Assembly (NCBI RefSeq): GCF_024158125.1
Contig: NZ_JAMZFT010000001.1
Location: 992,001-1,056,000, forward strand
Length of the DNA: 64,000 nucleotides
Source of the DNA: Futiania mangrovi
Lineage (GTDB): Bacteria > Pseudomonadota > Alphaproteobacteria > Futianiales > Futianiaceae
Direction of reading: 5' to 3'
Part shown: in pieces, positions 2,330 through 14,878 of the stretch
How positions within the stretch are numbered: position 1 is the stretch's first letter
How the letters are laid out: the number at the start of each line of letters is the position of its first letter
The notes under the pieces: model-generated
What the model was told of the DNA's origin: nothing
What the model saw: only the letters and a program-made list of their open reading frames with translations
Database searches by the model: none
Translations under genes and position numbers: made by a program

Positions 2330-2989
2330 TCAGATCCGGATGAAGGGGTTGAGATAGCGTCCGATCGGGCCCGTCAGGCGCAACGGCGCGCTGGTGACGG
2401 CCAGGCAGATGCACTCCCCGTCCGCGTCGGCGACCGGCTGGTGGTCGTCGTCCGGACCGGCGATGGCCACGTCGCCGCGCACGAAGTGATTCCCCCGGTC
2501 CGTGAATCCGCCAGCGAGGACGAGTGTCATCTCCGCACCCTCGTGCGTGTGCCGCGGCATCACCGCGCCGGGCGCAATGCGCATCAGGCGGGTCGTGAAG
2601 CCCGGCCGGCCCTTCAGGAGCTCGACCTCCTTCAGGCCGATCATCGAGCGCCAGCCAAGTCCGCCGAAGCTTTCCCCAAGATAGCGCGCAAGCGGCATCG
2701 GCACCGCGAACGGCGCATCTGTTGCCGGGCGCGCACCTGCCTGCGGAGCAAGCTCCGCAGCATCGTCAAGGCAGTCGAGCACGCGGTCGAGAAGGCTTTC
2801 GGACACGGGCTCCGGTCCGATTTCCTCAAGCATCGCGCCACCCAGCGTCTCGAGGCGCGCGGCCTCCGCACGGCACGCGGGGCACAGTGTAAGATGCGTC
2901 GCGACCAGCAGGGCCAGCGGCTCAGGCATGGAGCCTGCCGCATACTCCAGAAGCAGGTCTTCACCCGGATGATGGATGGGTCCGGTCAT
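2330..2989 (-). CDS. chrR: ChrR-type zinc-binding anti-sigma factor
   Basis: The 219-residue protein has both ChrR domains. The N-terminal zinc anti-sigma domain carries H6, H32, C36 and C39, in nearly the same spacing as the zinc ligands of Rhodobacter sphaeroides ChrR. The C-terminal cupin domain carries H147, H149, E153 and H183. In the characterised system the N-domain sequesters RpoE, and the cupin domain is needed for release when singlet oxygen or organic hydroperoxides appear. The start ATG overlaps the stop of the sigma-factor gene (ATGA), so the two are translationally coupled. All expected metal ligands are present, so a working anti-sigma factor is inferred. Confidence 0.93.
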   Translation of the reverse strand: MTGPIHHPGEDLLLEYAAGSMPEPLALLVATHLTLCPACRAEAARLETLGGAMLEEIGPEPVSESLLDRVLDCLDDAAELAPQAGARPATDAPFAVPMPLARYLGESFGGLGWRSMIGLKEVELLKGRPGFTTRLMRIAPGAVMPRHTHEGAEMTLVLAGGFTDRGNHFVRGDVAIAGPDDDHQPVADADGECICLAVTSAPLRLTGPIGRYLNPFIRI

Positions 2990-3543
2990 GCAATATGCTC
3001 CAGAACGCTCTTCAGCCTGGCCGTGGCCAGCCGTAATCTCGATTTCACCGTGCCGAGCGGAAGGTCCATCCGCTCGGCGATCTGGCTGTGCGACAGGTCC
3101 TCGAAGTAGGCGAGCTTCAGAAGCGAAAGCTGACCTTCTGGAAGTCCCTGCATCGCGCTGTGCAGCCGCTCTCCCATGTCCGCCGCCTCGAGCGCATCGT
3201 CCGCCGCGGGCGGCGCGTCCGCGACCAGCGCGGGGTCTTCCGGGTCGATTTCCGGCCGCCGTTCCCGCCGCAGCACGTCGATCCGGCGGTTCCGTGCGAT
3301 CGTGAAGATCCAGGTGCTGGCCGAGGCCTTTGCTGGATCGAACTGAACTGCCCGGCGCCAAACCGTCAGCATGACGTCCTGAACCAGGTCTTCCGCTACC
3401 TCGTCCGTGGCGCCGAGGCGACGCAGATAGGCCTTGATCCGCGGCGCCATCACGCGGAACAGCGATGCGAACGCACCGCGATCGCGGTCCACCGCAATCG
3501 CTGCCATCAGGGATTGAAGGTCGTAGGCGTCGGACAGGGTCAC
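2986..3543 (-). CDS. rpoE: ECF sigma factor, RpoE of the singlet-oxygen response (ECF11 type)
   Basis: The 185-residue protein has sigma region 2 (about residues 20-90, with EDLVQDVMLTVW and STWIFTIARNRRID) and region 4 (about 130-180, with LSHSQIAERMDLPLGTVKSR). It directs RNA polymerase to genes of the photo-oxidative response. Pairing with ChrR in an overlapping operon supports this subtype. The start is uncertain. I chose GTG at 3543, which gives the usual length and has GGAG just upstream. The only in-frame ATG nearby (3507) has no visible ribosome site and would clip the protein. A promoter-like TGATCC-N18-TAAAAC lies about 130 bp upstream, suggesting autoregulation. Confidence 0.92.
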   Translation of the reverse strand: MTLSDAYDLQSLMAAIAVDRDRGAFASLFRVMAPRIKAYLRRLGATDEVAEDLVQDVMLTVWRRAVQFDPAKASASTWIFTIARNRRIDVLRRERRPEIDPEDPALVADAPPAADDALEAADMGERLHSAMQGLPEGQLSLLKLAYFEDLSHSQIAERMDLPLGTVKSRLRLATARLKSVLEHIA

Positions 3544-3673
3544 GGTCTCCGAAGTCTTCGGGCCATTTGACGGAAGGACACGCCCTCCCGCAACCCCGAT
3601 CCCGGGGCGGCCTTGACGTTCGAGAACCCGCACGCTGTCCACGCGACCTCGCTTCCCTCGCTTGTAACGAACC

Positions 3674-3703
3674 GTTTTACGCAAGCCCCCGCATGCCGGA
3701 TCA
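3674..3703 (-). promoter_or_regulatory. Putative RpoE-type promoter for rpoE-chrR
   Basis: Read on the minus strand, TGATCC (3703-3698) is followed after exactly 18 bp by TAAAAC (3679-3674). This fits the TGATCC -35 element and TA-rich -10 element described for Rhodobacter RpoE. It points toward the rpoE gene, whose start is about 130 bp away. Confidence 0.65.
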
Positions 3704-3722
3704 CTTGGGCCGCAGCCGCGTA

Positions 3723-3752
3723 TGATCCGCCTGTGCGCGGGGCGCGTATTCC
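3723..3752 (+). promoter_or_regulatory. Putative RpoE-type promoter for the ufaD operon
   Basis: TGATCC (3723-3728) is followed after 18 bp by TATTCC (3747-3752), pointing toward the flavin oxidoreductase gene that starts at 3823. The -10 match is weaker than in the opposite promoter. The two -35 elements are only 19 bp apart, so the sigma factor would control both directions from one short region. Confidence 0.6.
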
Positions 3753-3822
3753 GATAGAGCTTGTTGCCGGCCCTCCACTCCGGGTGGCCGCCGATCCCCC
3801 GGACGAAAGGGCAGTACCCCGT

Positions 3823-5175
3823 ATGAGAATTGCAGTCATCGGCAGCGGCGTGAGCGGTCTGTCGGCAGCGTGGGCGCTTTCGCGCGTGCACGACGTTGCC
3901 CTTTACGAGGCCGAGCCGCGCCTTGGCGGTCATGCCAACACCGTCACCGTCATGGACCGCGGGCGCGAGGTGCCCGTGGACACTGGCTTCATCGTCTACA
4001 ACGAGCACAATTATCCCAACCTCGTACGCTTCTTCGATGCGCTGGGCGTACCGACGCAGGCGAGCGACATGTCGTTTGCCGTTTCCGCCGACGGTGGGGC
4101 GTTCGAATATGCAGGCGACGTCCGCGGTCTCGTTGCGCAACCGGCGAACCTGTTGCGCCGGCGTTACTGGCGGATGCTGGCCGACGTGGTGCGCTTCTAC
4201 CGGTCGGGGGCCTCCGTGCTGGCAAGGTTGCCTGACGCCCGCCACGATGCGCAGGCGCCGACGCTGCGCGATATCCTGGAGGACGGGGGCTATTCGCAGA
4301 CCTTCGCCGTGGACCATTTGTTGCCGATGGCAGCCGCGATCTGGTCGTCGACTGTGGAGAAGATCCTCGATTTTCCGGCGGAGACGTTTCTCAACTTCTT
4401 CGTCAACCACGGCCTGCTGAACCTGGGGGAGCGGCCGCGCTGGCGCACGGTCACGGGCGGCAGCCGGTCTTACGTGGAGAAGGTGGGCGCCCACCTCGGC
4501 CAGCGGGTGCGCCTTGCCACGCCTGTCGCCGAGGTGCGCCGCACGCCCGCGGGCGTCGTCGTGATCGACCGGCAGGGGCATCGCGACACCTTCGACGAGG
4601 TGATCCTCGCCACCCATGCCGACCAGTCGCTGGCCCTTCTGGGCGCGGGCGCGACGGTGAGCGAGCGCGGCGTCCTCGGCCGCTTCCGCTTCCAGCCCAA
4701 TCTCGCGATCCTGCACACCGATCCCTCGCTGATGCCCCAGCGCCGCATGGCGTGGGCCAGCTGGAACTATATCTCGGCAGGCGCCGAGGACCGGTCGCGG
4801 CACGTCACGCTGACCTACTGGATGAACCGGCTGCAGGGGCTGGAAACGCAGAAGCCGCTGTTCGTGACGCTCAATCCGCTGAAGCCTCCCGCGCCGGAGA
4901 CGGTCGTCACGCGCACCATGTACCGCCATCCGGTCATGGACCGCGAAACCCTCAAGGGGCAGGGGGAGTTGCCCTCGATCCAGGGGCTCGACGGCATCTG
5001 GCATTGCGGCGCATGGTGCGGATACGGGTTCCACGAGGACGGCGCGCAGGCGGGCTTCGCGGTCGCCGCCGCGCTGGGCGCACCCGTGCCGTGGGCGGAC
5101 GCCATCCGCGAGATGAGCCCGGCGGGCAGCGCCGCCCTGCCGCGCCGGCGGGAAGGGATCGCGCTCACGGGATGA
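3823..5175 (+). CDS. ufaD: FAD-dependent oxidoreductase, UfaD-like (furan fatty acid desaturase)
   Basis: The 450-residue protein starts with a Rossmann FAD motif (GSGVSGLSAAW, residues 7-17) and has the layout of flavin amine-oxidase-like enzymes. It fits the R. sphaeroides RSP_1091 type. In that organism UfaD introduces a second double bond into methylated vaccenoyl chains of phospholipids, on the way to furan fatty acids, and the locus belongs to the RpoE regulon. The call rests on family features and on identical gene order (next gene DUF1365, then symporter and DUF3833). The start ATG at 3823 was chosen because the FAD motif follows at once; upstream in-frame sequence belongs to the promoter region. 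It overlaps the next gene by ATGA. Confidence 0.82.
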   Translation: MRIAVIGSGVSGLSAAWALSRVHDVALYEAEPRLGGHANTVTVMDRGREVPVDTGFIVYNEHNYPNLVRFFDALGVPTQASDMSFAVSADGGAFEYAGDVRGLVAQPANLLRRRYWRMLADVVRFYRSGASVLARLPDARHDAQAPTLRDILEDGGYSQTFAVDHLLPMAAAIWSSTVEKILDFPAETFLNFFVNHGLLNLGERPRWRTVTGGSRSYVEKVGAHLGQRVRLATPVAEVRRTPAGVVVIDRQGHRDTFDEVILATHADQSLALLGAGATVSERGVLGRFRFQPNLAILHTDPSLMPQRRMAWASWNYISAGAEDRSRHVTLTYWMNRLQGLETQKPLFVTLNPLKPPAPETVVTRTMYRHPVMDRETLKGQGELPSIQGLDGIWHCGAWCGYGFHEDGAQAGFAVAAALGAPVPWADAIREMSPAGSAALPRRREGIALTG

Positions 5176-5987
5176 CCGGAACCGCACGCCAGCGCGCCTC
5201 GGCACTCTACCGGGGCGAGGTGATCCACCGGCGCCATGCCGCGCCGGCGCACGAGTTGCGCGCCAACGTCTATTCTCTCCTGCTCGATCTCGACGAGCTT
5301 GAGGACCTCACCCGGGAGCTTTCGCTCTTCGGGCACGGGAAGCGGCGTCCCTTTTCCTTCCGCGACCGCGATCACGGACCGCGCGACGGCACGCCGCTCA
5401 AGGCCTGGATCGTGGAGGAACTGACCCGCGCCGGACTGTCCGCCGAACGCTGGAGCATTCGCCTCCATTGCTTCCCCCGCGTACTCGGCAGCGTGTTCAA
5501 CCCGCTCTCGACCTGGTTCGCCCATGACGAGACGGGCGCTTTACGCGCCATTCTCTACGAGGTGTCGAACACCTTCGGGCAGCGGCACGGCTATCTGGTG
5601 CCCATCGACCCGGAGGAGGGTGCCGCGCACCGGCACACGGCGCAGAAGACCTTCCACGTCTCGCCCTTCTTCGACGTCGCCGGCACCTATGCCTTCCGCA
5701 CGGCGGTTCCGGGGGAGCGTCTGAACCTGATGATCCGCTACGACGGACCGGAGGGGCCGCGCCTCACCGCCACGCACACCGGCGAGCGCCGGGCTCTGAC
5801 GGACACGGAGTTGCTGAAGGCCGCCGCCGCCTGCCCGTACCTCACCTTCCGCGTGCTGCGCGGCATCCACTGGCACGCGCTGAAACTGTGGCTGAAGGGC
5901 GCGCGCTATCACGCCCCGCCCGCACCGCCCGCGCGTCTTGTCGAGGTGGTGAAGGGCCCGGACGCGCTGGCCGGTCCCGCGGAATGA
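5172..5987 (+). CDS. ufaO: DUF1365 protein, UfaO-like (furan ring formation)
   Basis: The 271-residue protein is a full-length DUF1365 member with the conserved stretches HRRHAAPAHELRANVYSLLLD, NPLSTWF and KTFHVSPFF. In R. sphaeroides the DUF1365 protein at this position (RSP_1090, UfaO) is needed with oxygen to turn the diunsaturated methylated acyl chain into the furan ring. Here it follows ufaD with an ATGA overlap and is followed by another overlapping gene, so the operon is tightly coupled. DUF1365 proteins elsewhere occur with cyclopropane synthase genes without a defined role, so the enzymatic assignment depends on the operon context. Confidence 0.8.
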   Translation: MTGTARQRASALYRGEVIHRRHAAPAHELRANVYSLLLDLDELEDLTRELSLFGHGKRRPFSFRDRDHGPRDGTPLKAWIVEELTRAGLSAERWSIRLHCFPRVLGSVFNPLSTWFAHDETGALRAILYEVSNTFGQRHGYLVPIDPEEGAAHRHTAQKTFHVSPFFDVAGTYAFRTAVPGERLNLMIRYDGPEGPRLTATHTGERRALTDTELLKAAAACPYLTFRVLRGIHWHALKLWLKGARYHAPPAPPARLVEVVKGPDALAGPAE

Positions 5988-7309
5988 CCCGGCCCGCCAC
6001 CTGGGGGCGGGCGCTCGCCTACGGGCTGCCGGGCCTGCCGCTCGCGGCGCTTCTCTTGCCGCTCTATGTCTATCTGCCGTCCTTCTATGCCGAGGACATG
6101 GGGCTGGGGCTCGCCGCCGTCGGCACGGTCCTTCTCGCCGCGCGGCTGTGGGACATGGGGACCGACCCGGTCGTCGGCTATTTCTCCGACCATATCCGGA
6201 CGCGCTTCGGGCGCAGGCGGCTCCTGATGGCGGCGGGCGCGCCGGTCCTGCTCGTCTCGACCTGGGCGTTGTTCGTGCCGCCCGAGGGGGCGGGTCCGCT
6301 CTACCTGCTGGTCACGAGCATGGGGGCCTATCTCGGCCTGACACTCGTCCTCCTGCCGTTCAGCGCGTGGGGGGCGGAGCTTTCGAACGACTACGACGGG
6401 CGCACCTCGCTCGCGGCGGGGCGCGAGGGGTTCACGCTCGCAGGCACCCTGATCGGCGTCGGCGTGCCCGCAGCACTCGGCCTGACGGGTGGAGATGCAC
6501 TCGAACTGATCGCTTTGGGCCTTCTCATCGTATTACCGGCATGTCTGTTCGTGACCTTCCTTTCGGTGCCGGAACCGCCGGCCCATCGGCAGACCTTGCC
6601 ACCCCTGTCGCAAGGGGTGCGGGTGCTGGCGCGCAACCGGCCGTTCGTGAAGCTGCTCGTGGCCTATGTGCTCAACGGCTGCGCCAACGGCCTGCCGGCG
6701 ACACTGTTTCTCCTGTACGTCAAGCATGTCCTGCAAGTGCCCGACATGTCAGGACTTCTTCTTCTGATTTATTTCGGGTGCGGGGCGGCGTCGGTGCCGC
6801 TGTGGGTCTGGGTCAGCAAGCGCACGGGAAAGAAACCCGCCTGGATCGGCTCGATGATCTGGGCGGCCGTGATCTTCGCATTCGTGCCGCTTCTGGGACC
6901 TGGCGACGTGGGCTGGTACATTGCGATCATCGTGGCGACAGGCATCGGGCTTGGCGCGGACCTGGCGCTTCCGGCATCGATGCAGGCGGACGTGATCGAC
7001 CTCGACCGGGTGGAAACGGGGACGGAGCGTGCGGGCCTCTATTTCTCGCTGTGGGGCATGGCGACCAAGCTGGCGCTGGCGCTGGCGGTCGGCATCGCCT
7101 TCCCGCTGCTCGACCTTGCGGGCTTCGCGCCGGAGGCGGAGGCGAACGGCCCACAGGCGCTGACGGCGCTGGCGTTGCTTTACGCCTTCGGACCGTCGCT
7201 TCTGAAACTCGCCGCCGTCGCGGTGGTCTGGACCTATCCGATCGACGCGGCCGCGCAGGCGGAGATCCGTGCGCGGCTAACGGACGGGGAAGCCGCGCGG
7301 CATGCATGA
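5984..7309 (+). CDS. GPH/MelB-type major facilitator symporter
   Basis: The 441-residue protein has about 12 hydrophobic helices and the GPH-family signature region near the N-terminus (DMGTDPVVGYFSDHIRTRFGRRR, residues about 58-80). Family members move sugars or other organic solutes with protons or cations. Position and type match the symporter gene of the R. sphaeroides RpoE-dependent operon (RSP_1089). Its substrate is unknown, and a lipid-related or stress-related solute can only be guessed. The ATG at 5984 overlaps the previous stop. In-frame sequence upstream belongs to the DUF1365 gene. Confidence 0.85.
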   Translation: MTRPATWGRALAYGLPGLPLAALLLPLYVYLPSFYAEDMGLGLAAVGTVLLAARLWDMGTDPVVGYFSDHIRTRFGRRRLLMAAGAPVLLVSTWALFVPPEGAGPLYLLVTSMGAYLGLTLVLLPFSAWGAELSNDYDGRTSLAAGREGFTLAGTLIGVGVPAALGLTGGDALELIALGLLIVLPACLFVTFLSVPEPPAHRQTLPPLSQGVRVLARNRPFVKLLVAYVLNGCANGLPATLFLLYVKHVLQVPDMSGLLLLIYFGCGAASVPLWVWVSKRTGKKPAWIGSMIWAAVIFAFVPLLGPGDVGWYIAIIVATGIGLGADLALPASMQADVIDLDRVETGTERAGLYFSLWGMATKLALALAVGIAFPLLDLAGFAPEAEANGPQALTALALLYAFGPSLLKLAAVAVVWTYPIDAAAQAEIRARLTDGEAARHA

Positions 7310-7328
7310 CCGGCAGAGGGAGCATTTC

Positions 7329-7919
7329 ATGTCCTGGTCTCGTCTCGGGCTGGCGGGTCTGCTCGCCCTCGTTCTCGCAGGGTGCGGCGGCATGAACGTT
7401 CAGGACTTCAAGGGCCGCGAGCCGCGCCTGGTGATCGAGGACTATTTCGCGGGCCGCACGCTCGCCTGGGGCATGTTCCACGACCGCTTCGGCAATCTGC
7501 GCCGCGAGTTCGAGGTGACCATCGACGGCACCTGGGACGAGGCCAAGCAGACCCTGACCCTCGTCGAGGACTTCGTCTATGCCGACGGGGAGGAGGAGCG
7601 GCGCGTCTGGACCATCGTCAAGACCGGCCCCGACACCTACACCGGAACCGCGGACGGCGTCGTCGGCACGGCGGAGGGGGAGGCGCAGGGCAACACGCTC
7701 AACTGGCGCTACACCTTCGCGCTGCCCGTGGGCGAAAGCGTCTGGAACGTGCAGTTCGACGACTGGCTCTATCTCCAGCCGGGCGGTGCGCTGCTGAACC
7801 GCGCGGTGGTCAGCAAGTTCGGCCTGACGCTGGGGGAGGTGTCGCTCGCCTTCGTGAAGCCGGAGAAGCTGTCGGCTGCCGCGGGGAATGAGCCGATGCA
7901 GACGGCAGCCGCGGAATAG
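7329..7919 (+). CDS. DUF3833 lipoprotein
   Basis: The product is a lipoprotein of 196 residues. A signal peptide ends in a lipobox (LVLAGC), and the mature domain contains the DUF3833 features NVQDFKG and RTLAWGMFHDRFGNLRR. The ATG at 7329 was preferred over one at 7302 because GAGGGAG lies a proper distance upstream and the signal peptide then begins directly. It is the last gene of the RpoE-type operon, in the position of RSP_1088 in R. sphaeroides. The fold resembles small lipocalin-like barrels, which would suit lipid handling at the membrane, but no activity is known. Confidence 0.82.
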   Translation: MSWSRLGLAGLLALVLAGCGGMNVQDFKGREPRLVIEDYFAGRTLAWGMFHDRFGNLRREFEVTIDGTWDEAKQTLTLVEDFVYADGEEERRVWTIVKTGPDTYTGTADGVVGTAEGEAQGNTLNWRYTFALPVGESVWNVQFDDWLYLQPGGALLNRAVVSKFGLTLGEVSLAFVKPEKLSAAAGNEPMQTAAAE

Positions 7920-7923
7920 GGCG

Positions 7924-8364
7924 TCAGGTCTTCAACGCCAGGCGGCGGCGCACGACACGCACGAGCGGGCCGATCAGCGGCAGCTTCGCATAGAACTCAG
8001 CCCCCGAATCCCAGTGATCGAGGTGGCGGACGATGCGGCCGCCTGCGTCGATCTCCACCTCGCTCATGCCCGGGATCTCCCAGTCGCGGCCGAGCGCGCG
8101 GAAGCGGAATACCCAGCGGATGTAGCCCGCGCGCGCGGTCAGCGCCTGGTCCAGCACCTCGAAGCGCGGGTTCTCCGTATCCTCGAACATGTGCGCCAGG
8201 ATGCGCTTGTACGCCTCCACCCCGCGCACGTCGTTGAACGGGTCGGTGAAATGGATGTCGGGCGCGCACAGCGTATCGAGCGTGCCGAGCGTTTCAGGAC
8301 TCAGGGTCTCGAACAGCCGGGCATAGGCCCCAAGCTTCGCCGCGCGGGCGTCATGGCCGCTCAC
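7924..8364 (-). CDS. SnoaL/NTF2-like protein
   Basis: The 146-residue protein has the small alpha+beta cone layout of SnoaL-like/NTF2 proteins: an N-terminal helix (ARLFETLSPETL), FTDPFNDVRGVEAYKRILAHMF, then strands ending in VRHLDHWD. Some members isomerise or hydrate small ligands and others only bind. The start is GTG at 8364 inside a GTGA overlap with the SDR stop, so translation is coupled. It converges with the DUF3833 gene with only four bases between the stops and no visible terminator. A similar small protein in RpoE-type regulons suggests a shared role with the SDR. Confidence 0.78.
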   Translation of the reverse strand: MSGHDARAAKLGAYARLFETLSPETLGTLDTLCAPDIHFTDPFNDVRGVEAYKRILAHMFEDTENPRFEVLDQALTARAGYIRWVFRFRALGRDWEIPGMSEVEIDAGGRIVRHLDHWDSGAEFYAKLPLIGPLVRVVRRRLALKT

Positions 8365-9143
8365 GCTGTCGCGCGGGCCGCCTTGGCGGCCTCCTCCGGC
8401 ACCATGCGGCGGGCGAGCATCAGCGCCAGCGGGTAGGGCAGCATACGGTAAAGCTTCATCAGCCAGCCGAAGACGCGGGGGAAGACAATCTCGAAGCGGT
8501 CCGACATCAGCCCCTTGTAGAAGGCGTCGGCGGCGTCTTCCACCTCGATCAGGAAGGGCATGGGGAAATCGTTCCTGGCGGTCAGCGGCGTCTTCACGAA
8601 ACCGGGGCAGACGAGTTGCAGACGAATTCCCATCATCTCCGCCTCGGGGCGCAGCGCCTCGGTGAAATTGATCAGCCCCGCCTTGGTCAGGCCATAGGCC
8701 GCCGAGGTCGGCAATCCTCTGTATCCCGCGACCGAGGCCACGACCGCGATCTGACCCACGCGGCGCGCCTTCATCGCGGCGAACACGGGCAGGAAGCCGT
8801 TGAGCGTGCCGAACACATTGACCTCGACAAGCTTGCGGAACGTGTCCGCCTCGAGGTCGGCCGCGTGCACCGGCTGGTGCGTGCCCGCGTTGAAGACGGC
8901 GATGTCGATGGCGCCCAGGTCCGCCTCGATCCGCGCGACGGTATCGGCCATGGCGTTCGCGTCGGTCGTGTCGCAGGGGTAGGGGACGATGCGTCCGTGT
9001 GCGGCTTCTCCGGCTACCTCTGCCAGTGCTCCCTCGGAGCGCGCGGTGATCGCGACGCGCCACCCCTCGTGCGCCATCTTCAGCGCCAGCGCGCGGCCCA
9101 GGCCGCTGCTCGCGCCCGTGATCCAGGCGAGGCCGGTGGTCAT
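8361..9143 (-). CDS. Short-chain dehydrogenase/reductase (RSP_1087-like)
   Basis: The 260-residue enzyme is a classical SDR. It has the cofactor motif TGASSGLGRA (residues 9-18), NAG, a catalytic Ser in VVASVAG and the YGLTK motif. A hydrophobic C-terminal tail suggests membrane contact. Such enzymes oxidise or reduce alcohol/ketone groups with NAD(P). In R. sphaeroides an SDR belongs to the RSP_1087-1091 RpoE operon, and its product affects turnover of ChrR. Here the SDR has moved to a convergent operon beside the ufa genes. It overlaps both neighbours by ATGA/GTGA. Confidence 0.87.
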   Translation of the reverse strand: MTTGLAWITGASSGLGRALALKMAHEGWRVAITARSEGALAEVAGEAAHGRIVPYPCDTTDANAMADTVARIEADLGAIDIAVFNAGTHQPVHAADLEADTFRKLVEVNVFGTLNGFLPVFAAMKARRVGQIAVVASVAGYRGLPTSAAYGLTKAGLINFTEALRPEAEMMGIRLQLVCPGFVKTPLTARNDFPMPFLIEVEDAADAFYKGLMSDRFEIVFPRVFGWLMKLYRMLPYPLALMLARRMVPEEAAKAARATA

Positions 9144-9868
9144 CGGGGCAGTTCGGTGGGCCGGTATTCGAAGCGGTCGCCATCGATCGAGAAGGCGAGT
9201 TTCGCCCAGTCGCCGGATGGCGTGTACCAGATGTCGAGGTCGAGGTCGCCAGAGAGCTTCCATTCCATCGCCCGGCGGCGCATCTCGCCCGTGCCGACCG
9301 TGTCCTCGCGCACCGGCTGGGCGGTGACGCTCAGCACGCGGCCGTTCTGCGTGTCGAGAAGCGTGTCTGCCTCCACGAATGCATTGCGCCAATACGTCGT
9401 CGGCACGACGTCGCCGTCCACGGTCTTGCGGCCCTGCGGCCCGTCGATCACGACCTTGCCGCCCTCGCGCCGGGCGGTGACGCTCAGCTTCTCGCCATTG
9501 TCGTTGGTTTGCGCGTCGAGGGAGAGGAGCCGTCCGTCCGGGCCCACGATCTCCACGGCCTCGTGCCGGTAGGTGTAGAGCGGGATGAAGCCCAGCTTGA
9601 CCTTCAGGTCGATGGTCACGCGCGCCTGCCGGCGTCCGTCGGGCAGCCGCTCAACGCGCACGGTGTGCGTGCCGATGGGGCTGCCCTCGCGGTAGACGTC
9701 GAAGCTGTAGACGGTCGCGTCCTGCGTGCGCTCTGCCTGCGGCGCGGCCTCGAGCGAGGCCATCTGCACGCCGCTCGCGCCCGCGGGCGCACCAAGCCCC
9801 GCACCGAGCATGAGGGCCAGCCCGGCGGTCGCGATGGTGAGGCGTGTGGTTGTGTGTCGCATGAACAT
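9140..9868 (-). CDS. Exported DUF6134-like protein
   Basis: The 242-residue protein has a signal peptide (about residues 1-32, ending near APAGAS). The mature domain is rich in beta strands, with YSFDVYREGSPIGTHTVRV, FIPLYTYRHEAVE and VVPTTYWRNAF. This fits an alphaproteobacterial family that I recall as DUF6134, distantly like DUF3108. A periplasmic location is likely. It is the first gene of the small operon with the SDR and the SnoaL-like protein. It lies 82 bp downstream of dnaE2 on the same strand. I found no TGATCC element upstream, so RpoE control is not shown. Function is unknown. Confidence 0.65.
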   Translation of the reverse strand: MFMRHTTTRLTIATAGLALMLGAGLGAPAGASGVQMASLEAAPQAERTQDATVYSFDVYREGSPIGTHTVRVERLPDGRRQARVTIDLKVKLGFIPLYTYRHEAVEIVGPDGRLLSLDAQTNDNGEKLSVTARREGGKVVIDGPQGRKTVDGDVVPTTYWRNAFVEADTLLDTQNGRVLSVTAQPVREDTVGTGEMRRRAMEWKLSGDLDLDIWYTPSGDWAKLAFSIDGDRFEYRPTELPR

Positions 9869-9950
9869 GATACGCGCCGAACCCGCTCATGGTTCACGAT
9901 GTCCCAACAGTTTGTGCGAGGGCGCGCCCGTGCGCAAGCGGAACGCGCCT

Positions 9951-12900
9951 TCACCGGAAGTTGCGCCCGCGCGGCATGGCGCGGACCGGGCGCTTCACCT
10001 CGTCGGCGTGGGCGAGGCTCTGGACCCGCGTGTGCGCCTCGCCCAGCGTGGCCAGCAGGTCGCTCGCGTCCTCCAGTTTCTCCGCGATCAGGTGAACGAT
10101 GCCCGCCTCCGACTGCAGCCGCCCGCGCACGACCAGCAGGCGCGCGCCCAACGTCTCGGCCCGGTACGCCTCGAAGAGCTTGGGCCAGACGATCACGTTC
10201 ACCGTGCCCGTCTCGTCCTCCAGCGTGAGGAAGATCACGCCCCGCGCGGAACCGGGACGCTGACGCACCAGGACGAGGCCCGCCGCCGCCGTCAGCGTCC
10301 CGTCGCGCATCCGCTCCAGCGCCTCGGCGGGCTGGGCGCGCAGGCCGGCGAGGCGGCCGCGCAGGAAGCTCACCGGGTGCGCGCGCAGGCTCAGGCCCAG
10401 GTGACGATAGTCCTCCGCCACCTGCTGGCCGGGCGGCATGGGCGGCAGGGCTGCGTCTGGCTCGCGCGCGGGGCCCGACAACGCCCGCAGCAGCGGCAGG
10501 TCGTCGGCATCCCCCGTCCGCCCCAGCCCCCGCACGGCCCAGAGCGCATCGCGCCGCGCGAGGCCGAGGCCCGCGAACGCATCCGCCTCCGCCAGGCGTT
10601 CGAGCGCGGCGGGCGACAGTCCCGTGCGCAGCCACACGTCGCGCACGCTGTCGTAACCCGCGCCCCGGTGCGCGACGAGCGCCTCGGCCGCCGCGTCCCC
10701 AAGCCCCCGCACGGTGGCGAAGCCCAGGCGCACGGCGCGCGCGGTCCGCATCTCTACCGCCATCCAGGCGAAGCGCGGGTGGGGCGCCGCACCGTTCTCT
10801 GGGCGGTCCTTCGGCGCGAGCGGTTCGAGCGTCGCCTCCACCCCGCTCGCGTTCACGTCCACGGCACGCACCGCGACCCCGTGCTCGCGCGCGTCGCGGA
10901 CCAGTTGCGCGGGCGCATAGAAGCCCAGCGGCTGCGCGTTCAGCATCGCGGCGAGATAGACGTCCGGATAGCGGCACTTCGCCCAGGCCGACGCATAGAC
11001 CAGCAGCGCGAAGCTCGCCGCGTGCGACATGGGAAAGCCATAGGTGCCGAAGCCCTCGATCTGGCGGAAGCACTGCTCGGCGAAGGCGCGGTCATAGCCG
11101 CGTTCGGCCATCCCCTCGACCATCTTGTCGAAGAAGGTGTGGATCGTCCCGACCCGCTTGAAGGTTGCCATGGCGCGGCGCAGGCGGTCGGCTTCCTCCG
11201 GCGTGAAGCCCGCGGCCACGATGGCGATCTTCATGCACTGTTCCTGGAACAGCGGCACGCCGAGCGTCGGGCCCAGCACCTCCTCCAGCTCGCGGGAGGG
11301 GTAGGCGACCGGGTCGATGCCCTGGCGGCGGCGCAGATAGGGATGCACCATGTCGCCCTGGATCGGGCCGGGGCGCACGATCGCCACCTCCACCACCAGG
11401 TCGAAGAACCGCCGCGGTTTCAGCCGCGGCAGCATGTTCTGCTGCGCCCGGCTTTCCACCTGGAAGAGGCCCACGCTGTCCGCCCGGCACAGCATCTCGT
11501 AGACGGCGGGCTCCTCCTTCGGGATCGTGGCGAGCGTGAGGTCTTGCCCGTACTCCTCTGACATGAATGTGAAAAACCGCCTCAGCGCGCTCAGCATCCC
11601 GAGGCCCAGGATATCCACCTTGAGGAAATCCAGCGCCTCCAGGTCGTCCTTGTTCCACTCGATGACCGTGCGGTCCTCCATCGCCGCGTTCTGGATGGGG
11701 ACAAGTTCGTCCAGCCGGTCGCGCGCGATCACCATGCCGCCTGTGTGCTGCGAGAGATGCCGGGGAAAGCCGATCAGGTCGCGCGCCAGCGCCAGCACCA
11801 GCGCGAGGCGCGGGTCGGCGGCGTCGAGACCGGCGCGGGCGGCGTCCTCCGCGTCCACGCCCTCGCGCGACCAGCCCCAGACCGAGCCCGACAGCGCCGA
11901 CAGCGTGTCCTCGCTCAGCCCGAAGGCGCGGCCCACGTCGCGCACCGCCATGCGCGCGCCATAGGTCACCACGGTCGAGGTCAGCGCCACCCGCGCCCGT
12001 CCATAGCGGCGGTAGATGTATTGCAGCACCTCCTCGCGCCGCTGATGCTCGAAATCCACGTCGATGTCGGGCGGCTCCCCGCGCGCGGCGGAGATGAAGC
12101 GTTCGAACAGCAGGTCGTGTTCGATGGGATCGACCTCCGTGATGCCGAGGCAGAAGCAGACGACGGAATTCGCAGCCGATCCGCGGCCCTGGCAGAGAAT
12201 TCCCTCGCGCCGCGCGAAGCACACGATGTCGTGGACGGTCAGGAAATAGGGTGCGTAGCCGAGCCGGCCGATCAGCGCCAGTTCCCGCTCCATCGTCGCC
12301 GCCACCGCCGCCGGCACGCCCGCGGGATAGCGCCGCCGCGCCCCCTCGCGCGCGAAATGTTCGAGCGCGGCCTGCGCGCTCCCGAACCCGGCGCGGGCCT
12401 CGTCCGGATACTGGTAGCGCAACTCCTCCAGCGAGAAATGAAGCCGGTCGAGCAGGCGCAGGCTTTCGCCCACGGCCTCGGGAAGGTCCGCGTAGAGCCG
12501 CGCGGTCTCGGCGGGCGTCTTCAGGTGGCGCTCGGCGTGGGGGGCGAGCCGCGTTCCGGCCGCGTCGAGCGTGGTGTGCAGGCACACGCAGGTCAGCACG
12601 TCGTGCAACGGGCGGCGTTCCGGCGCGTGGTAGAGCGCGTCATGGGTCGCGAGCAGGGGCACGCCCGCCGCAGCCGCAATCTCCCGCAGCCGGGCGAGGC
12701 GGCGGCGGTCCTCGCCGCCCATGCGCAAGGGGGCTGCCAGCCAGACCGCGCCGGGCCGCGCCGCCGTCAGCGTGGCGAGCGTTTCCGGCGTCTCCCTGCC
12801 CGGCTTCTCGGGCGGCATGAGGATCAGCGACAGGCCGTCGGCCCACGCCAGCAGGTCGGGGAGGTCGAGATGACATTCCCCCTTGGGCGCGCGCCGGTTG

Positions 12901-13226
12901 CCGTGCGTCAGCAGGCGGCAGAGGCGGCCATAGGCGGTCCGGTCCTCCGGGTATGCGATCACGTCCGGAGTGCCGTCGCGGAAGACGAGGCGGGCGCCCA
13001 CCGCGAGTTTCAGGCCCTTCTCCCGCGCGCCCGTCTCGCGCCAGGCCATGTGCGCGCGCACCGCGCCCGCCAGCGTGTTGCGGTCGGCGATCCCGATACC
13101 GGAAAGGCCGAGGCGCAGGGCTTCGGCCACCATCTCCTCCGGGTGCGAGGCGCCGTGCTGGAAGGAGAAATTGCTCGCCGCGGCAAGTTCGGCGAAGCGG
13201 GGCGGGAGGGAGGACGGCGTACTCAT
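9951..13226 (-). CDS. dnaE2: Error-prone DNA polymerase DnaE2
   Basis: The 1091-residue protein is a C-family polymerase of the DnaE2 type. It begins with a PHP domain (FSFQHGASHPEE, IADRNTLAGAV), has the polymerase catalytic region with the aspartates of PDIDVDFEH, and ends in an OB-fold (GVIFLTLEDETGTVNVIVW). The length is typical of DnaE2, shorter than the replicative DnaE1. With ImuA and ImuB it carries out translesion synthesis and induced mutagenesis. The start overlaps the imuB stop by ATGA. It is the last gene of the cassette and would follow LexA control of imuA. Confidence 0.95.
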   Translation of the reverse strand: MSTPSSLPPRFAELAAASNFSFQHGASHPEEMVAEALRLGLSGIGIADRNTLAGAVRAHMAWRETGAREKGLKLAVGARLVFRDGTPDVIAYPEDRTAYGRLCRLLTHGNRRAPKGECHLDLPDLLAWADGLSLILMPPEKPGRETPETLATLTAARPGAVWLAAPLRMGGEDRRRLARLREIAAAAGVPLLATHDALYHAPERRPLHDVLTCVCLHTTLDAAGTRLAPHAERHLKTPAETARLYADLPEAVGESLRLLDRLHFSLEELRYQYPDEARAGFGSAQAALEHFAREGARRRYPAGVPAAVAATMERELALIGRLGYAPYFLTVHDIVCFARREGILCQGRGSAANSVVCFCLGITEVDPIEHDLLFERFISAARGEPPDIDVDFEHQRREEVLQYIYRRYGRARVALTSTVVTYGARMAVRDVGRAFGLSEDTLSALSGSVWGWSREGVDAEDAARAGLDAADPRLALVLALARDLIGFPRHLSQHTGGMVIARDRLDELVPIQNAAMEDRTVIEWNKDDLEALDFLKVDILGLGMLSALRRFFTFMSEEYGQDLTLATIPKEEPAVYEMLCRADSVGLFQVESRAQQNMLPRLKPRRFFDLVVEVAIVRPGPIQGDMVHPYLRRRQGIDPVAYPSRELEEVLGPTLGVPLFQEQCMKIAIVAAGFTPEEADRLRRAMATFKRVGTIHTFFDKMVEGMAERGYDRAFAEQCFRQIEGFGTYGFPMSHAASFALLVYASAWAKCRYPDVYLAAMLNAQPLGFYAPAQLVRDAREHGVAVRAVDVNASGVEATLEPLAPKDRPENGAAPHPRFAWMAVEMRTARAVRLGFATVRGLGDAAAEALVAHRGAGYDSVRDVWLRTGLSPAALERLAEADAFAGLGLARRDALWAVRGLGRTGDADDLPLLRALSGPAREPDAALPPMPPGQQVAEDYRHLGLSLRAHPVSFLRGRLAGLRAQPAEALERMRDGTLTAAAGLVLVRQRPGSARGVIFLTLEDETGTVNVIVWPKLFEAYRAETLGARLLVVRGRLQSEAGIVHLIAEKLEDASDLLATLGEAHTRVQSLAHADEVKRPVRAMPRGRNFR

Positions 13227-14878
13227 GCGAAGAGCCCGTGCAGGTACCAGCGCGGGCGCATGGTCTCGTGGCCATAGAGGCCTGCGCGGAACAGCCAGAA
13301 GCGCCGTCCGCGCGCATCCTCCACGCGGAAATAGTCGCGCGTCAGGTCGCCGTCGGCGGCGTGCCACCATTCGGGCGCGATCCGCTCCGGCCCCTCCGCG
13401 CGCACCACGTCGTGCACCACGCGCCGCCAGCGGAAGCGGATCGGCGGCCCGTCCGGCACGGCCGCCAGCGTCTCCACCGGCTGCGGCGGATCGAACAGGC
13501 AAAGGGGGCGCAGGGGCGGCGCGCCCGCCTCGCGCCGGCGCGGCCAGGCGGGCAGGGCGCCTGTGTCGAGTGCGCTCAGCGCCAGCGCCTCACGCTCCGG
13601 CACATGGGTGTCGCGGCGGGTAAAGCGCAGGACATGGGTGCGCCCGACGCGCGCGGCCAGCCGCTCCACCAGGGCGGCGAGGTCGTCGGCGGTATCGGTG
13701 CGCCCGGCCAGCGTCTCCTGCCGGGTGCCGAAGGGCGCGGCGCGCAGCACGGCAAGGCGGATCGTGTCGAAGCCGAAGCCGGGGTCGAGCGGATCGGCGA
13801 GCGCCTCCAGCCGCTCCCGGAAGAGCCGCGCCATCACGTCTGGATCGCGCAAGGCGCGCGCCGTCTCCACCGTGCAGCGCCGGACCTGCCCGTCTGCGCG
13901 GAAGAACGCGGCCTCCAGCGCGCGCGCGCCTTGGCCGCGGCCCTCCAGCATGTCCTTCAGGTCGCCGGCGAGCATGGCCAGCGTGGCGAGCAGCGCGTCG
14001 ATGTCCGTGAGCGGCTCGGCGAAGCGCCGCTCTGCCGTCATCAGGGGCGCGGGCCGGCGCGGCGCGATGGGCGGACGGGTCCGGCCGAGGAGCGCGTCGA
14101 GCCGGTCCACGAGATCCGCCCCGAACCGCGCGGCGAGGGGCGCACGCGGGCGGTCCGCCAGTTCCCCGATGGCGTGGAGCCCCATGCGGTGCAGCGCGGC
14201 CTGCGTCTCCGCCTCCGCCCGCAAGGCCGCGACGGGGAGGGGGCGCACGGCCTCCGCCTCGCCGCCCGGCGGCACGATGGGGGCCGAGGATGTCCCCGAA
14301 TCTCCGCCCCCGAACCGGGCAAGCGCATGGGCCGCGGGTCCGTTGCCCGCAATGGCCGCGCGCACCGCGAAGCCCTGCCGGAGGAGCGCCCGCAGCGCCT
14401 GTTGCAGCAGCGCCGTCTCGCCGCCGAAGAGGTGCGCGCAGCCCGTGATGTCGAGCGTCAGCCCGTCCGCGCCGTCCAGCGCCACGAGCGGGGTGTAGCG
14501 GTCGCACCAGTCCGCTACCGCGTCGAGGCAGGCGCAGTCGGCCGCCGGATCGTGGTCGGCGGTGCGGATGTCCGGATGCCGCGCGCGCGCGTCGGCCAGC
14601 GCCATGCCGGGGAGGAGCCCCAGTGCGCGCGCCGCCCGGTCCGCCGCCGCGATGCGCAGCGCGCCGCCGGCCTTCGCCACGAAGACGAGGGGGTGGGCGG
14701 CGGCCCTTGCGTCCGTTTTGTCCGCGCGCGCCTCATCCTGCGCGCCTGAGAGGCCGGAAGAGGGGTGCACGGGCGTCTCCCCATGCGCCCCCCGGTCCCG
14801 CCGCCGCAGCCGGTCGGCCGGCAGGTCCGGAAACCACAGGGCGAGCATGCGCCTCGATGTCGCGGAAGCGTCCGCCAT
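13223..14878 (-). CDS. imuB: ImuB, Y-family polymerase-like mutasome protein
   Basis: The 551-residue protein has the Y-family fold (LALWFPDLPADRLRRR near the start, then the palm region with LTLDITGCAHLFGGE and a helix-hairpin segment MGLHAIGELADRP). ImuB proteins are catalytically inactive and act as the hub linking ImuA, DnaE2 and the beta clamp. The start at 14878 gives 10 residues before the first conserved strand; ATG at 14848 is a shorter alternative. The start lies 146 bases inside imuA. The C-terminal tail ends in YLHGLFA, close to the usual ImuB ending. Confidence 0.93.
   Translation of the reverse strand: MADASATSRRMLALWFPDLPADRLRRRDRGAHGETPVHPSSGLSGAQDEARADKTDARAAAHPLVFVAKAGGALRIAAADRAARALGLLPGMALADARARHPDIRTADHDPAADCACLDAVADWCDRYTPLVALDGADGLTLDITGCAHLFGGETALLQQALRALLRQGFAVRAAIAGNGPAAHALARFGGGDSGTSSAPIVPPGGEAEAVRPLPVAALRAEAETQAALHRMGLHAIGELADRPRAPLAARFGADLVDRLDALLGRTRPPIAPRRPAPLMTAERRFAEPLTDIDALLATLAMLAGDLKDMLEGRGQGARALEAAFFRADGQVRRCTVETARALRDPDVMARLFRERLEALADPLDPGFGFDTIRLAVLRAAPFGTRQETLAGRTDTADDLAALVERLAARVGRTHVLRFTRRDTHVPEREALALSALDTGALPAWPRRREAGAPPLRPLCLFDPPQPVETLAAVPDGPPIRFRWRRVVHDVVRAEGPERIAPEWWHAADGDLTRDYFRVEDARGRRFWLFRAGLYGHETMRPRWYLHGLFA

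Follow-up and report, generated by a model that had tools for sequence, protein, structure and literature searches.

A predicted divergent pair of RpoE-type promoters between rpoE-chrR and a ufaD-type operon in Futiania mangrovi

The gap separating rpoE-chrR from a ufaD-type operon in Futiania mangrovi was read, with high confidence from its sequence, as two divergent ECF11/RpoE promoters subject to autoregulation, and it is very likely that RpoE controls both operons and that this control includes positive feedback. The window analysed is a stretch of 64,000 nt (GCF_024158125.1, NZ_JAMZFT010000001.1, positions 992,001-1,056,000, forward strand), and all coordinates without a contig label are window-based. 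The sites, together with the flanking genes and the conservation of both, lead us to infer the following for F. mangrovi as regards promoter activity, transcription starts and feedback. Singlet oxygen would lead to the loss of ChrR, and RpoE would then transcribe both operons, its own from a minus-strand promoter (predicted start near 3671) and the ufaD operon from a plus-strand promoter (predicted start near 3755). By analogy with Rhodobacter sphaeroides, UfaD and UfaO may promote ChrR turnover, which would provide the positive feedback, and may also contribute to the synthesis of furan fatty acids.

The predicted promoter pair and the genes it faces

The predicted RpoE-type promoter of rpoE-chrR was located at 3678-3703 on the minus strand (-35 TGATCC at 3698-3703, -10 core CGTA at 3678-3681) and that of the ufaD operon at 3723-3748 on the plus strand (-35 TGATCC at 3723-3728, -10 core CGTA at 3745-3748). 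Both are exact matches to TGATCC-N16-CGTA inside one 280-bp gap, and 19 bp separate their opposed -35 boxes, as the original prediction had proposed for the two TGATCC elements. Two exact sites were found in the window versus a mean of 0.00 and a maximum of 0 in 100 dinucleotide shuffles. The same prediction had placed the -10 elements at TAAAAC (3674-3679, minus strand) and TATTCC (3747-3752, plus strand), each of which does lie 18 bp from its own -35. The TA at this spacing was upheld, but the hexamers were rejected as -10 elements; nothing is conserved past TA, and the conserved part is CGTA at a spacing of 16. Across 71 sites from relatives, C and G carried 1.9 bits each and the bases past TA ≤ 0.2 bits; given that these sites had been picked by TGATCY and TA, the unbiased result is that for C and G only. 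The ECF11 consensus in Pseudomonas syringae is likewise TGATCC-N16-CGTA (PMC5507510), and the RpoE-dependent sRNA Pos19 of R. sphaeroides is preceded by TGATCC(N15)GCGTA (PMC5036791).

That one promoter faces rpoE-chrR and the other a ufaD-type flavin oxidoreductase operon was borne out by profile matches to the genes. The sigma factor gene rpoE (2986-3543, minus strand, with an inferred GTG start at 3543) encodes sigma-70 regions 2 and 4, and the closest solved relative of its product is R. sphaeroides RpoE (2q1z_A, E 8.7e-46). The adjoining chrR (2330-2989, minus strand) encodes a zinc anti-sigma factor with a cupin domain that scored over the TIGR02451 cut-off, with R. sphaeroides 2z2s_B as the closest solved relative (E 1.2e-39). 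All eight zinc ligands of the two ChrR domains, as named in PMC6852236, were identical (8/8) in an alignment read by eye. The sigma factor was assigned to ECF11 (RpoE-ChrR), with an adjacent ChrR-type gene, these zinc ligands and an exact motif before the sigma gene.

On the plus strand, the operon consists of a ufaD-type flavin oxidoreductase gene (RSP1091 type, 3823-5175; PF01593, PF13450; synteny with rpoE-chrR in 51 loci), a ufaO-type DUF1365 gene (RSP1090 type, 5172-5987; PF07103, E 1.2e-73), a GPH-type MFS transporter gene (RSP1089 type, 5984-7309; PF13347) and, as its last member, a DUF3833 gene (RSP1088 type by position, 7302-7919; PF12915). The ends of neighbouring genes overlap throughout.

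Homologues of UfaM, UfaD and UfaO, the three enzymes of the furan fatty acid pathway, are present in the genome, as assigned by family and synteny rather than against the R. sphaeroides sequences. Candidates for UfaM were the two full-length CFA-type synthases of the genome, and the one at C1:1325126 shares roughly 46-53% identity with the third gene of the ufaD operons of relatives, compared with roughly 31-37% for the other. It lies about 330 kb from the ufaD operon, directly after a photolyase gene; in this region (L158:1192-5947, C1 ~1321190-1325950) it is preceded by the photolyase gene and by a further ECF sigma gene. A search upstream of phrA-ufaM for an RpoE site yielded none with N16-CGTA, and a weak GCATCC-N17-CGTA was seen 37 nt before ufaM. 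The proposal that singlet-oxygen sensing and furan fatty acid synthesis form a single local switch thus held for UfaD and UfaO but not for UfaM; with its gene outside the operon and lacking a good RpoE site, UfaM, which acts first in the pathway, is not visibly on the switch.

Conservation among relatives and alternative readings

Loci carrying rpoE were collected from named genomes, and in 51 of 80 ufaD is adjacent to and divergent from rpoE. At these junctions TGATCY-N18-TA was found on the rpoE side in 48 of 51 and on the ufaD side in 23 of 51. Most of the remaining loci keep N16-CGTA on the ufaD side with a degenerate -35 (CGATCC, TAATCC, CAATCC), the weakest of these scoring no better than shuffled sequence and having their constant position as sole support; in many rhizobial loci this position is 26 bp from the other -35. 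Degeneracy of the ufaD-side -35 in about half of the relatives was counted against the preferred reading. Across the 51 loci the rpoE-side -35 is nearly always TGATCC, whereas the ufaD-side box is the one that varies, which suggests that autoregulation may be more tightly constrained than the output promoter.

A blind scan for a perfect double site was run on 387 whole genomes of the class, with the reversed pattern as control. Matches were obtained in 20 genomes at a gap of 10-40 bp and in 10 at 41-71 bp, against none for the reversed double site in the 387 genomes. Twenty-five of the 30 matches (the window's own included) fall at a rpoE-chrR/ufaD junction, and the others lie beside ufaD alone (one), beside an SDR gene with DUF6134 or SnoaL (three) and at locus L192 (one). 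The genomes searched all lie outside the organism's own order, too distant for close-range footprinting. Outside the Rhodobacteraceae, the transporter and DUF3833 genes are retained in loci L009, L010, L012, L040, L044, L046 and L050; conservation of RSP1089-1087 has been described as restricted to this family (PMC3818230).

Because only 19 bp lie between the -35 boxes, the pair might instead be one bidirectional element at which polymerases compete or cooperate, coupling rpoE and ufaD output mechanically. The gap of 19 bp here, like the 26 bp in many rhizobial loci, would be within reach of the alpha C-terminal domain, so that physical coupling is possible. The comparative data do not call for it, however: in relatives that carry the same genes, the -35 to -35 gap extends from 12-13 up to 104 bp (median 29), which argues against a required geometry. 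A single coupled element was accordingly judged unlikely, and since the distance varies so widely, the gap probably holds two independent promoters.

Service of the sites by an ECF sigma factor other than the adjacent RpoE was considered very improbable. CGT-containing -10 elements are common among ECF sigma factors, and the genome does hold other ECF sigma genes, for example at L158, but TGATCC-N16-CGTA matches what has been published for ECF11, the neighbouring sigma factor belongs to that type, and across genomes the motif occurs together with the sigma gene. A chance origin of the paired motif is scarcely credible: although ten fixed bases would naively give a few exact matches per genome, here two exact sites sit in one 280-bp gap, each directed towards an operon of the core regulon, and the recurrence of the same arrangement in many relatives refutes it.

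A third site and the predicted regulon

Exact TGATCC-N16-CGTA occurs five times in the 3.39-Mb genome, twice at the rpoE/ufaD junction, and TGAWCY-N16-CGTA gave 13 sites versus 0 for the reversed control. Given the naive estimate, the genome-wide count by itself is no proof of function; it is the position, orientation and conservation of the predicted sites that do argue for it. The original prediction had offered TGATCC-N18-TA as a regulon marker, and the close variant TGATCC-N17-19-TA returned 71 genome matches, which is too loose and means that CG must be part of the pattern. Beyond the junction, exact predicted RpoE sites precede a fasciclin gene (C1:633103) and a glutathione peroxidase gene (C2:640989), and a further exact site lies at C3:76337. 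A near-exact TGAACC site precedes a GTP cyclohydrolase gene (C2:108325), a PF01227 member whose identity with FolE2 is not established, and other TGAACC sites were found at C2:11010, C2:529492 and C1:664415. In R. sphaeroides, fasciclin (RSP1409) and folE2 (RSP1852) figure among the genes listed as induced by singlet oxygen; fasciclin and glutathione peroxidase are known regulon types, which was counted in favour of the RpoE reading. The core regulon is that defined by Dufour et al. (2008), as far as it is relayed in PMC6852236 and PMC5507510.

Within the window, a third predicted RpoE-type site, TGAACC-N16-CGTA, was found at 9871-9896 on the minus strand. Its end is 2 nt upstream of the first ATG of DUF6134, the first gene of a convergent DUF6134-SDR-SnoaL operon (7924-9868, minus strand). 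The genes were identified by Pfam matches, the block is kept in relatives, and the operon is a probable further RpoE target. A similar site, defined by N16, CGTA and a match to at least 5 of 6 -35 bases, is present near the DUF6134 start in seven of the nine best related loci and in 0/5 of the weaker DUF6134 paralogues without an SDR neighbour. In addition, perfect back-to-back RpoE sites face an SDR gene with DUF6134 or SnoaL in loci L196, L207 and L208. On this sequence evidence the third site probably drives the operon, and the case for placing the operon in the RpoE regulon is good; the 2-nt distance would make its transcription near-leaderless. We consider it likely that the region forms a three-unit RpoE island, comprising the divergent pair and a near-leaderless third promoter. 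Outside Rhodobacter, the singlet-oxygen response would then count DUF6134 and the SnoaL-like protein among its conserved but so far unstudied members.

Two observations were made in passing. In L208, a fasciclin-like gene was seen by eye on the other side of the double site, divergent from the genes named above. In the window, a long frame (9951-13502, minus strand) upstream of the DUF6134 operon resembles the error-prone polymerase DnaE2 and is a candidate for it.

Comparison with known systems

In R. sphaeroides, RSP_1091-1087 lies directly upstream of rpoEchrR (RSP_1092-1093) and each operon has an RpoE promoter (Nuss et al. 2013, PMC3818230); experiments there established that RpoE controls both operons and that RSP1091-1090 is needed for ChrR degradation (PMC3818230). 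RSP1091, RSP1090 and RSP2144 are UfaD, UfaO and UfaM (Lemke et al. 2020, PMC7380195). R. capsulatus does not have the operon at all, as opposed to having it at a separate place (PMC7074977). The statement that Rhodobacter keeps the two loci apart is thus incorrect, and the organisation seen here had been described before.

The F. mangrovi locus resembles that of R. sphaeroides in its divergent ufaD-ufaO operon, in the RpoE-type promoter before each operon and in the transporter and small protein genes downstream (PMC3818230, PMC7380195), as well as in having ufaM elsewhere beside phrA (the RSP2143-2144 arrangement). The ufaD-ufaO pair is also shared with Rhodopseudomonas palustris (RPA2571-2569) and with rhizobial ufaD-ufaO-ufaM operons, and its divergence from rpoE-chrR with the rhizobial loci, but ufaM is the third gene there and lies 330 kb away here. 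The divergent pair is thus the standard arrangement known from R. sphaeroides and widespread in alphaproteobacteria, an instance of ordinary, well-conserved regulation. A genome search of F. mangrovi found no photosynthetic reaction-centre gene, a difference from R. sphaeroides. The feedback module that links the sigma factor to furan fatty acids in R. sphaeroides thus appears here, with perfect predicted promoters, in an alphaproteobacterium that lacks such a reaction centre. Unlike in R. sphaeroides, the SDR gene lies outside the ufaD operon, in the convergent DUF6134-SDR-SnoaL operon with an RpoE-type site of its own, and the likely membership of that operon in the same regulon is the only part of this analysis able to add to what is known.
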